A stretch of DNA of 64,000 nt from Polytrichum commune (Eukaryota; Streptophyta; Polytrichopsida; Polytrichales; Polytrichaceae), in assembly GCA_950295325.1 (NCBI GenBank), contig OX485809.1, positions 38,285,081 to 38,349,080 on the forward strand. Direction: 5' to 3'. This document shows positions 15,621-58,698 of the stretch, in pieces. Below the pieces are notes generated by a model. It was not told the origin of the DNA and made no database searches. It saw only the letters and a program-made list of their open reading frames with translations. The position numbers were made by a program, and so were the translations under genes. Numbering within the stretch: the first letter of the stretch is position 1; each line of letters opens with the position of its first letter.

Positions 15621-15924
15621 ATAATTCTCTATAGATATATACATATATCTTCTTTCTTCCCAATGCCCCATTCCGTTTTTCGAGATGTAAGGTTTATATT
15701 GTACCGAATGAATACTTGCCACAACAACATAGACGAAAGACCAACTTTGACCGTACCCGATCTTAACCCCAAAATCAAGGCGGTCAGGGTATCCCCATGC
15801 ACTTGTCGCCTAGCCCCCGCCAATCACTTGGTGTGGGGAGATATTTGGGCATAATCGGTCAAGTTCCCAAGCTCAACGGGTCACATGTCGTCGGGATCGT
15901 TCGGTCTTTCTTTACTAATAAGAG

Positions 15925-16302
15925 GTGAAGTATGTATTAGGTAATCGTTTTATTGGAACCGGTTATCGGTGCAGAACCGGTTCTGCACCGATAACCGGTT
16001 CCAATAAAACGATTACCGGACGTAACCGGTTGGCCACTTTGTTGAGCCGCGCAGGTGACCTAAACAGTGGGTCACTTGTCACCATAACTGATTTAGATGA
16101 TCATAACCGGCTGGGATGTCGAGGTTATCGTCTGCAAACCTGTGTGCTCAAAGCCAATCGTGTAGTGCCACCTCGGCGAAACAAAGCGGCCAACCGGTTA
16201 CGTTCCTTAGATTTCTTCGAAACACGATTTGGTAATGTTTTAGAAGTCTCGATGAACTTCGACGACCATTTATTTCTCGAGCTCAATCGACTGGTTCATT
16301 GA
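15925..16302 (+). CDS. 125-codon open frame running through the palindrome
   Basis: The frame opens just before the perfect palindrome and stays open through a locally GC-richer segment. The translation is basic and Arg/Asn-rich with no recognised domain. The first 30 residues are simply the palindrome read through, so coding origin is doubtful. Several YAACCGG words recur within it. I treat it as a chance opening. Confidence 0.15.
   Translation: MKYVLGNRFIGTGYRCRTGSAPITGSNKTITGRNRLATLLSRAGDLNSGSLVTITDLDDHNRLGCRGYRLQTCVLKANRVVPPRRNKAANRLRSLDFFETRFGNVLEVSMNFDDHLFLELNRLVH
15940..16017. repeat. 78-bp perfect palindrome with AACCGGTT octamers
   Basis: Positions 15940-15978 are the exact reverse complement of 15979-16017: 39-bp arms with no spacer. 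The centre is AACCGGTT (15975-15982); two further octamers lie at 15957-15964 and 15993-16000, giving exact 18-bp spacing. Two more lie just outside (16024-16031 and 16192-16199). The flanks do not extend the symmetry. It could be a true cruciform-forming element, a fresh foldback insertion, or a hairpin artefact of sequencing or assembly. Confidence 0.95.
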
Positions 16303-16639: not shown

Positions 16640-16930
16640 TCGAAGGATTCTCAAGAGCCATGGCGTAATGACTTTCTATGTAAACATAATACCCTTATAC
16701 CTACGATCGGGGAGAACCAGCAATTAGATACATATGAACCGGTTGAGTTTGAAAAATAACCGATTGAAGTTCAAGACTCCAGGAGGATTACCGATCACTT
16801 CTAAAAGAGTTTATAGAATATAACCCAAATTAATATAAGAAAAACCGGAGGATGTCAACATGTAACCCGGTTGGACTTGCAAACACTAGGATCTCAACCG
16901 ACTATGCCCAAAAATCTCCCCAATCACTAC
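16640..16930 (+). repeat. Local repeat family R, copy 1
   Basis: It carries TATGAACCGGTTGAGTTTGA, AAATAACCGATTGAAGTTCA and GGTTGGACTTGCAAAC, then AACCGACTATGCCCAAAAAT. Related copies: 17820-18060, 18225-18610 and 39745-40270; a weaker match is at 33200-33290. The stretch AAATAACCGATTGAAG is the unoccupied counterpart of the insertion at 39802-40106. Confidence 0.65.
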
Positions 16931-17221
16931 TGCCTCATACCTAGATGAAAGCCTCTCTCTCTCTCTCTCGCCTTGCCATTTGTGCGCTTGTTGGGAGGTG
17001 TACCCTAGGAACGGGTTCCCACTCTCTCCGTTGAACGAATGAATGTGTAAGTTAGTAATAATATTAAGTAAGTGAGTTGTGTTGTGTTGTAGAGCTGCAA
17101 GTCGTGGTACCATTCTGACATTCCGTGGCCCCGCGGGTTTACTTTGGGTCTATGAGCGGCGACAGGCCCAAAGTTCCGGGAATTGCTCCCCCACGCACAT
17201 TAAATAAGAAAAGGTGCCAGG

Positions 17222-17466: not shown

Positions 17467-17811
17467 ACTACACTAAATAGGTAGATTAGTGTTGGAAACA
17501 CTAATAGTCGTCGAAAACGCTAAATGTAAATTGTCTCTATAGTGTTAGAACACTAAATGTCAACTCTAACACTATTTGTACCAAGTAGTAACTTTAAATA
17601 TTTACATGAGCGCATTTAGTGTTAGATGATATTTTGTAAATCTTGGAATGAAGAATTGAAGGAAGAAGAATATGAGAACCTCGTAAAAGGTATAATTTGT
17701 TCAAACCCTATTCAAACACTAATTATAATGTCAGTTGAAAATTAGTGTTTTAGGTACTTTTGCATCTAACACTAATCTTCATCTAACACTAATCTACCTA
17801 TTTAGTGTAGT
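17467..17811. mobile_element. TIR element, ACTACACTAAATAGG ends
   Basis: The left end ACTACACTAAATAGGTAGAT and the right end are reverse complements for at least 26 bp, on through TAGTGTT. The 345-bp interior is full of AGTGTTAGA/TCTAACACT words in both directions, like subterminal binding repeats. It splits a family R copy: left flank GAGAGAATCGACC, right flank TTACAGATGAGCCG, matching contiguous sequence at 18235-18285. No target duplication could be fixed. Confidence 0.7.
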
Positions 17812-17819
17812 TACAGATG

Positions 17820-18060
17820 AGCCGATTAAGGGGAGTATGAGAACTAGCCGGTCAAAGTTCATCAAGGTTTTAGGAAAATTACCCATCGTATAGAGGAATC
17901 CATAGAATGTACCTCACATTTGTAAAGAGGAACCGAAAATAAACAACATGGAACCGGTTGGACTTGGAAATATTAGGATCTTCACCGATTATGCTCCAAA
18001 ATCGTCCCAAACAATGAGGTGAAACATTGGGTATGGACATACCATCACTAAGTTAGGGCC
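17820..18060 (+). repeat. Local repeat family R, copy 2 (empty site)
   Basis: It contains AGTATGAGAACTAGCCGGTC uninterrupted, which is the empty version of the MITE insertion site at 18299-18409. It continues through GAGGAATCCATAGAATGTAC, ATGGAACCGGTTGGACTTGG and TCTTCACCGATTATGC in step with copy 3. Confidence 0.75.
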
Positions 18061-18224: not shown

Positions 18225-18610
18225 AGGTTGAAGGGGAGAGAGAACCCACCGATTGACCGCCCGCTAGTTATAGATGAACCGGTTGATGGGAGTAGTATGA
18301 GAACTAGGGTTTGGGCGAACCAACCCATACACTCGGTCCTTGTTGGATGCCTAAACCCTTGCCTCCAAGGAACCAGTGTACGGATTGGTTTGCCCCAGCC
18401 GAGAACTAGCCGGTCAAAGTTCATAAAAAATTCAGGAGCATTACCCATCATGTAGAGGAATCCATAGAATGTACCTCACATTAGTATAGAGAAATCGAAA
18501 AACATGGAACCGGTTGGACTTGGAAATACTAGGATCTTCACCGGCTATGCTCTAAAGGCGTCCCATACATCGAGGTGAAAACATTGGGTATGAACATAAT
18601 ATTACTAAGT
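18225..18610 (+). repeat. Local repeat family R, copy 3 (filled site)
   Basis: It aligns with 17820-18060 apart from the 93-bp MITE plus 9-bp duplication. Shared blocks include CCGGTCAAAGTTCAT, GAGGAATCCATAGAATGTAC and GGTTGGACTTGGAAATA. Copies 2 and 3 are head to tail, so a local duplication preceded the MITE insertion. Confidence 0.7.
18308..18400. mobile_element. 93-bp MITE with 9-bp target duplication
   Basis: It is flanked by GAGAACTAG at 18299-18307 and 18401-18409. The ends are GGTTTGGGCGAACCAACC and, read inward from the right, GGCTGGGGCAAACCAATC; the whole unit folds into one hairpin. The empty site is present at 17838-17850. A sister copy is at 50591-50684. A 9-10 bp duplication fits Mutator-like elements. 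No coding capacity. Confidence 0.9.
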
Positions 18611-18919
18611 TCGAAGCAAGCATTTTTATTTTGTTTTGCTATTATCAGGTGATGCTTGGTCACAACCCAATGTTGGTCTAATATATAGGGTGAATGCATG
18701 GCATCGATAGTCTACGTCAATAATGGTATCAAAGGACCTACATGTGGATATCACAACTGTAATACCAATCAAATATTGATGTTTGATGGATACATCCTTG
18801 ATATATCACTCATGCGTTTTTTTAATAACCTAGTTCAAGTGTAGGCCAAGATACCACTCATAATTGCAAACATATAATACTCATGAAACTTGTCTTCACA
18901 TTGTTGAACTTCATGTTCA

Positions 18920-57717: not shown

Positions 57718-58074
57718 TCATTGGAAGTTGATTATGGGCACTAGCATAACATTATTCAACTGAGTTTGTATGTTGATGGGGTTGGGAATGAGCAAGATTC
57801 TATTCATAATGATACTATGTTTATTTCCACAACAAAGCATTGCATTGGAAGATTTAGGCCAAAAAACTCGGGTGAAATTGTGTCTTGATATGATTAAAGT
57901 GAAACGGGTTGATAAAAATTGAATAATGTTATGAGCTTTGTAACATGTCTTGCCTAAAGATTCACCTGCCACACAAGGTTGTTGGGGAGTTGAGTCAATG
58001 AAAGAGTGACACTTGTCAAGTTCAAACATTTCAGAGTTTAGAGTGGGACTTCTAAGTGCCTGGATGTAATTCAC
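57718..58074 (-). other. 118-codon open frame upstream of the gene
   Basis: No domain or splice context supports it and it overlaps the start of the tandem repeat region. The gap 56884-57717 should contain the gene's promoter and first untranslated exon. AT-rich words are present but no TATA box or start site could be fixed. Confidence 0.15.
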
Positions 58075-58610
58075 TACATGATTCCCTAATGGGCTTAGAA
58101 ATCATGGCACCCATGTTAGGGCACCCGATAGAGAAATACCACATCCCCTTTAGGTTTGTGCTTGATTCATCCCAACTTCATCTCACTAAACTAATTTGGG
58201 AATCCCATTATTACTTCTAGGGTCAAATTATTATCCTAAATAAGAAATTATGAGTTTAGAGTTTGAAGCTCATTGTGACACTTATAAGTGTTTGGATTTG
58301 GGTCACTAGATAATGCCCTAATGGGCTTAGAATTCATGGCACCCATGTTAGGGCACCCGATAGAGAAATACCACATCCCCTTTAGGTTTGTGCTTGATTC
58401 ATCCCAACTTCATCTCACTAAACTAATTTGGGAATCCCATTATTACTTCTAGGGTCAAATTATTATCCTAAATAAGAAATTATGAGTTTAGAGTTTGAAG
58501 CTCATTGTGACACTTATAAGTGTTTGGATTTGGGTCACTAGATAATGCCCTAATGGGCTTAGAATTCATGGCACCCATGTTAGGGCACCCTGTGAAAAGC
58601 ACGTCCCCTT
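58070..58610. repeat. Tandem repeat, 232-bp unit
   Basis: GGGCTTAGAA/TTCATGGCACCCATG starts at 58091, 58323 and 58555, giving an exact 232-bp period. The first two units are near-identical (one base seen to differ); the third diverges after about 45 bp, and the sequence before 58084 is a diverged version of the unit's end. So an old pair gained a recent near-perfect duplication, or an assembly collapse or expansion occurred. The unit contains family C words (TTTAGGTTTGTGCTTGATTC). Confidence 0.9.
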
Positions 58611-58698
58611 TAGGTTTGTGGTTCATTCATCCCAACTTAAACTCACGGGATTGATTTCAAATTTGCTACTGCTACTTCCAAGGTCATAATTTTTTTTA

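Follow-up and report, generated by a model that had tools for sequence, protein, structure and literature searches.

Among described transposons, those of the Helitron2 type come closest to the DNA analysed here. In the available portion of the relevant literature, asymmetric inverted repeats, the inner one of which lies just before the 3' hairpin, are given as the Helitron2 signature, and Bao and Jurka suggested that the 5' hairpin is opened, and the end point fixed, when the two repeats pair with each other (PMC3627910). The 3' hairpin of Helraiser is described, in the part of the report available, as a terminator whose removal lowers transposition and raises read-through (PMC4778049), and a study of maize and rice elements doubted, in the section consulted, that 3' palindromes are needed (PMC2575219). 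We analysed a 64-kb stretch of plant DNA (hereafter the window) that contains a long perfect palindrome, and conclude that this palindrome belongs to a young member of a small, non-coding type of transposon, a family that probably behaves like non-autonomous rolling-circle elements of the Helitron2/Helentron type. By analogy with those elements, it would work in the manner of Helitron2, of which we regard it as a candidate member.

The palindrome and the element that carries it

A spacer-free perfect palindrome of 78 bp, claimed in a preliminary description of the window for positions 15940-16017, was recovered exactly: its arms (15940-15978 and 15979-16017) are 39 nt each, 100% complementary and 0 nt apart, compared with 12 nt for the next-best spacer-free arm in a scan over every centre of the 64-kb window. 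The octamer AACCGGTT, which is its own reverse complement, starts at 15957, 15975, 15993, 16024 and 16192, as had been reported, and occurs 10 times in the window against 0.60 expected, a number reached in 0 of 100 shuffles. Two further properties had gone undescribed, namely a second inverted repeat beside the palindrome, in which 16020-16049 pairs with 16174-16203, and the dispersed-repeat nature of the whole stretch. The palindrome is the 3' terminal hairpin of a small dispersed mobile DNA element, which lies on the minus strand at window positions 15935-16202 (268 bp) with the layout 5'-CGTAACCGGTTGG...interior...CCAACCGGTTACG-TCC-hairpin-TAATA-3'. Its features are the following.

15935-16202, minus strand. 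Complete non-autonomous element of 268 bp, 5'-CGTAACC...CTAATA-3'; a sharply bounded dispersed repeat of the commonest length, its boundaries taken from element-free sites.
15932-15934, minus strand. Triplet CAT at the 3' flank (ATG on the plus strand), most likely the host target; from element-free sites and the frequency of CAT in copies.
15940-16017, no strand. 78-bp spacer-free palindrome, the 3' terminal hairpin in its collapsed form S5-O-U-O-U'-O-S3; from arm comparison and hairpin models.
15940-15956, no strand. First arm of the basal stem, which nearly all hairpin forms retain; from its match to the consensus arm.
16001-16017, no strand. Other arm of the basal stem; likewise from its match to the consensus arm.
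15957-15964, no strand. Octamer AACCGGTT of the outer stem; from the octamer count and as join point of deletion forms.
15975-15982, no strand. Octamer AACCGGTT at the palindrome centre, the putative join point of the collapse; from the hairpin series.
15993-16000, no strand. Octamer AACCGGTT in the outer stem of the other arm; from the octamer count and hairpin models.
16021-16043, minus strand. 3' asymmetric terminal inverted repeat, containing the octamer at 16024-16031; from inverted-repeat comparison.
16180-16202, minus strand. 5' asymmetric terminal inverted repeat at the 5' end, containing the octamer at 16192-16199; from inverted-repeat comparison.

A comparison of positions 15900-16240 with the genome of the same plant (64 contigs, 408 Mb; the window lies on contig C7) gave 94-100% identity for the 40 of 223 candidates that were scored. 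The window itself aside, the scored places share both end points to within a few bases, and the host flanks differ among the fetched copies. The 3' terminus ACGATTACCTAATACAT was found at 200 genomic places with at most one mismatch (reversed control 10), and the inverted repeat gave 431 genomic matches with at most two (control 0). Searched genome-wide, as the preliminary description had suggested for the palindrome arm, a 48-nt palindrome core was present at 58 places with at most three mismatches (control 0).

Our sample comprised 99 elements. Of these, 39 came from the similarity search (its 40 places minus L011, whose flanks match those of L010) and 60 from a 3' pattern containing CAT; the latter consisted of 21 elements (L041-L060) picked partly because their terminus and inverted repeat lie at an unusual distance from each other, and 39 from 40 further stretches, with L087 left out for having no 5' end. 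Lengths ranged from 219 to 411, the commonest being 268 (38 of 99), and indels in the interior define three subfamilies, A, B and C. Three loci deserve mention on their own account. L087 (G000:C1:40530630-40531213) is a one-ended copy with only the right hairpin arm and TAATA^CAT, preceded by unrelated DNA, and represents an insertion truncated on its 5' side or else the terminus of some longer element. At L127:7774-8000 lies an older relative, about 72% identical and in reverse orientation, which was seen up to the end of the fetched stretch. L060 holds two long-form elements in the same orientation, which start 893 bp apart with a partly repeated stretch in between.

The inverted repeats are asymmetric, one being at the 5' end and its partner just inside the 3' hairpin; in 93 of 96 elements the two match in at least 21 of 23 positions. 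In the window element, the 5' repeat begins at position 1 and the 3' repeat stops 3 nt before the hairpin. The fold predicted for its single-stranded DNA has two neighbouring stems, one of 24 bp between the inverted repeats and one of 37 bp plus loop in the palindrome, and a TAATA tail; its energy of -89 kcal/mol (z -14.1) was matched by 0 of 200 shuffles. In folds of the first 110 nt, the 5' repeat pairs with the interior CCGGTTATG region over a loop of about 75 nt, and the first 40-60 nt alone fold weakly. By analogy, such alternative pairings of the 5' repeat would permit the end-setting scheme of Bao and Jurka.

Insertion site

Element-free sites were identified with the joined flanks, minus the 3' triplet, as query, matched to repeat copies in the window; 18 of the 99 elements have such a site spanning the junction. 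For eight of the 18 (L009, L020, L027, L028, L031, L042, L052 and L118), a host CAT stands exactly at the junction in at least one element-free site, the match for L118 being very good on both sides, and some sites of L020 and L028 show TAT. The other ten have a host CAT in none of their element-free sites. The target triplet is CTT for L057 and AAT for L098, and the sites of L001, L025, L038, L059, L089 and L103 have ambiguous or other bases. Those of L014 and L109 contain no extra host bases, CAT being found 5' of the element instead; it may have been duplicated or brought along. These two are the only possible exceptions, among the 18 elements compared, to the usual absence of a target-site duplication.

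Among the 39 copies chosen without the CAT-containing pattern, 32 have CAT at the 3' flank. In the 99-element sample, A follows the CAT in 71; on the 5' side, the adjoining base is A in 56 and G in 3. L017 and L031 occupy the same position in two diverged copies of a single repeat. On the simplest reading of these junctions, CGTAACC...CTAATA would usually insert directly before a CAT-like triplet of the host, with neither gain nor loss of bases. The two flanks of one copy are no more alike than those of different copies (inverted z 0.2-0.3, direct z 0.9-1.6). Insertion into host hairpins, hinted at by a few flanks, was discarded for want of an overall signal in the inverted comparison.

Comparison with described transposons

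The element shares asymmetric terminal inverted repeats, a 3' terminal hairpin and, as a rule, the absence of a target-site duplication with Helitron2/Helentron transposons, and departs from their insertion at TT or TTTT in having a CAT-like target, often with A next to it. In the portion of the description available, non-autonomous Helitron2 elements likewise have the 5' repeat at the end, its partner inside the 3' hairpin, a 5' repeat able to pair with the interior, and usually no duplication; however, their target is TTTT^T/C, their 5' start is T rather than CG, their 3' repeat lies 20-30 nt from the end rather than 37-137 nt as in our 99-element set, and the hairpins described there are far shorter than the 45-129 bp found here (PMC3627910). 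The HINE or DINE-1-like elements of Helentrons, as far as the available text describes them, are also short and non-coding, with terminal or subterminal inverted repeats and a 3' palindrome, but they have palindromes of 5-10 bp, a TT target and terminal T runs, the last two being absent here, where we also found no linked partner (PMC4067079). The FoHeli elements of Fusarium, according to the part of the source at hand, resemble ours in their asymmetric inverted repeats and hairpins, and two FoHeli subgroups prefer a site longer than a dinucleotide (TNAT^T), whereas the target itself is different and coding copies are known there (PMC5148889).

The departures from these models leave some room for a transposon of another, perhaps undescribed, class without target duplication, using another HUH nuclease or a recombinase, in which the likeness to Helitron2 would be convergent. 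We consider this unlikely. The CAT-like target, the CG at the 5' end and the very large hairpin, all unlike the Helitron2/Helentron cases in the published accounts available, speak for it, as does our not finding a coding partner. So does the fixed target beside the hairpin-bearing end, which recalls the prokaryotic IS200/IS605 transposons: these have a hairpin next to an end and a fixed target beside that end, and do not duplicate the target. Unlike them, our element resides in a eukaryotic host and has, at its other end, no hairpin comparable to the 3' one; moreover, the Y1 transposase profile (PF01797) gave 0 matches in the genome, with two candidates scored, and matched 5 of 14 control genomes. 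IS200/IS605 is itself named in the available part of the Helitron2 description, and the arrangement of asymmetric repeats with the inner one before the 3' hairpin, which is the published Helitron2 signature, argues against a separate class (PMC3627910).

That the element is a canonical non-autonomous Helitron (Helitron1) is very improbable. The usual lack of target duplication, the 3' hairpin, the A favoured on the 5' side (56 of 99) and the presence of Helitron_like_N proteins in the genome would all agree with it, but the ends, CG...CTAATA in place of 5' TC and a terminal 3' CTRR, largely refute it, the target is CAT-like and not A^T, and asymmetric inverted repeats are no Helitron1 feature in the text available to us (PMC3627910). 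A MITE of a cut-and-paste transposon was rejected on the grounds that the element has no symmetric terminal inverted repeats and, as a rule, no target duplication.

In the search for a partner, Helitron_like_N had 34 matches in the genome, 20 of which were compared and fell into three groups. The element's ends were absent from the three of the 34 loci inspected for them (one per group, 20 kb each), motif matches inside the Helitron loci were judged to be chance, and second copies of the groups showed by eye no termini like those of the element. Apart from isolated matches, patterns that exclude the known interior picked up short members and repeat family R, with no evident long element, and the matches to [TA]GTAACCGGTTGGCCCG were dismissed as partner candidates, being located in family R. 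As a separate observation, the 20 compared places include at least three groups of Helitron RepHel sequences, one of which has 12 copies that are about 91-95% identical to each other and, judged by that identity, would have been fairly recently active.

The literature searched, judged by titles and the openings of abstracts, contained no plant Helitron2/Helentron family with these ends (Repbase was outside its scope, and the family may already be catalogued), and AACCGGTT was not found in the part covered. As far as this literature shows, the target preference and the octamer-joined hairpin series are new. The ends and the target preference (N^CAT) give a means of tracing this non-canonical, rolling-circle-like plant family in further plants, where programs designed around TC...CTRR ends would overlook it.

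Hairpin forms and the origin of the palindrome

Hairpins were obtained for 97 of the 99 elements (none for L089 and L091) and described by models built of a stem S, the octamer O, a 10-nt unit U or its complement and a loop P; nearly all models are octamer joins, and the fit was loose, with up to 9 edits. In this sample, the counts of which are not genome frequencies, 22 hairpins are parental (11 by the models and 11 relabelled for a length of at least 112 bp), 70 fit octamer joins or an 18-bp octamer gain, and five fit neither. The window's own kind, S-O-U-O-U'-O-S of 78 bp, accounts for 48 of the 97, five of these being 76-77 bp long, and two 60-bp kinds account for 15. Six hairpins have one octamer join with the loop kept (108a, two; 108b, one; 110a, two; 96c, one), and one of 96 bp has an added 18-bp unit. 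The simplest join, S-O-S of 42 bp, was not seen among the 97. The basal stem is within one mismatch of the consensus in the left arm of 95 and in the right arm of 94 of the 97, the right arm, next to the 3' end, being partly selected by the 3' search pattern.

The parental hairpins of related copies are imperfect and 113-129 bp long, and each arm around the loop bears two copies, 18 nt apart, of AACCGGTT or close variants; among the hairpin forms printed, only L056 and L114 contain the exact octamer four times. The window form would have arisen when the inner octamer of one arm was joined to that of the other and the loop was lost, and such a product is spacer-free because the octamer is its own reverse complement. 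Other octamer joins yield the two 60-bp forms and the forms of 108-110 bp. Parental and collapsed hairpins both occur in each of the three interior subfamilies, with 6 parental hairpins and 40 of the 78 kind in A, 8 and 5 in B, and 8 and 2 in C. Four 76-77-bp forms (L058, L102, L121 and L123) retain markers of an asymmetric parent on both the left and the right arm, and thus arose apart from the symmetric forms. L002 and L107 have bodies that are identical in the compared columns and hairpins of 78 and 96 bp, respectively. Judged from the subfamily markers, the body tree being poorly resolved and having no branch at 95% support, the hairpin has evidently collapsed repeatedly. A perfect loop-free form recurs when a longer hairpin loses its loop between short self-palindromic words, and the 97 sampled natural forms of one hairpin make the origin of spacer-free palindromes testable.

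This series also bears on the idea, raised in the preliminary description, that the palindrome is a functional AACCGGTT array for a putative dimeric DNA-binding factor, kept by selection; the Grainyhead-type name of the motif stems from that description alone. The regular 18-bp steps and the excess of octamers in the window (10 against 0.60 expected) would suit such an array. However, the step is the architecture of the stem (8+10) and follows from these units and the deletion joins, and the number of exact octamers per hairpin varies from 0 to 4 among family copies with the hairpin form, as deletions predict. Individual copies have also lost octamer bases, the rate of change at CpG sites is 3.8% in the hairpin and 4.4% in the rest, and the fetched copies are scattered insertions, leaving a binding array, of the Grainyhead type or otherwise, unsupported and extremely unlikely.

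With the palindrome read as the terminal hairpin of a Helitron2-like element, we propose the following course of events. The single strand would fold into two adjacent arms: one encloses the interior and is closed by pairing between the asymmetric inverted repeats, the other is the palindrome, and the 5-nt tail TAATA carries the 3' end that joins the host CAT. A partner-supplied HUH-type Rep/helicase would cut the folded strand at either end, with the hairpin as terminator on the 3' side, and join the element, presumably by a rolling-circle mechanism, in front of a CAT-like triplet of the host. The ancestral hairpin would have been 113-129 bp long, with a loop and with AACCGGTT or close variants twice per arm. 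While the hairpin is folded, a polymerase may skip from one arm's octamer to an octamer of the opposite arm, with loss of the loop and part of the stem, and the spacer-free product would keep the basal stem and still spread. A bolder version of this scheme, possible in our view though doubtful, is a plant lineage of HUH-type single-strand transposons that insert 5' of CAT, have a two-hairpin fold and renew their own terminal hairpin: the octamers would allow a decayed long hairpin to become, through polymerase skipping, a shorter perfect one, and palindromes would regenerate recurrently instead of simply decaying.

Age and decay of the hairpin

In the 43 sampled copies with 78-bp hairpins, divergence from their consensus is about 2%; though most of these copies were chosen for their similarity to the window, the suggestion that the palindrome is very young was about right. 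Substitutions per site among these copies are 0.0161 in the hairpin and 0.0210 in the rest. Fourteen of the 43 remain exact palindromes, changes in the hairpin are mostly confined to one arm, and double changes at paired positions number 3 against 0.89 expected (P 0.054). Arm-to-arm correction that would keep the palindrome was set aside, the double changes being suggestive at most and perhaps inflated by hot spots at methylated sites. Active maintenance, which had been offered as an option, is not needed to account for the palindrome, re-formation by new collapses aside.

Copies change at 3.4-4.4% of CG, 3.6-3.8% of CHG and 0.7-1.4% of CHH sites, and this excess of CG and CHG over CHH resembles that of methylated plant transposons. 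Strand-biased damage from single-strand transposition was considered and rejected: raw hairpin changes are 32 G>A and 12 C>T (P 0.004), and distinct events are 14 and 10 (P 0.54). The raw excess of G>A reflects shared inheritance, since the distinct events are even.

Hairpin reads can generate perfect palindromes, and an assembly or read-hairpin artefact had accordingly been named as a possible source. Among 50 listed of the 58 core places, however, 23 are perfect, 14 have one mismatch and 13 have two, many with private one-arm substitutions, and the 39 similarity-fetched copies share the element's ends within different host DNA; we regard an artefact as the least likely explanation of all. 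The striking palindrome is thus explained with neither a binding factor nor an artefact.

Other repeats

The 12-mer GTAACCGGTTGG, in variants, is common to the element's inverted repeat and the family R repeats at window positions 16725-16937, 17808-18060 and 18401-18611, by either chance or descent. The octamer is indeed common to both, as the preliminary description stated, but family R is a separate and far more abundant repeat, with 4359 first-look candidates genome-wide from a query that also covered another repeat. Several copies of the element are nested in family R repeats. One fetched locus encodes a GMGGIGKTTLA stretch, which we take to be of the NBS type and which, like the excess of changes at CG and CHG sites, points to a plant host. 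The window also contains a 232-bp tandem repeat at 58071-58646, with 2.5 copies and 95% matches.
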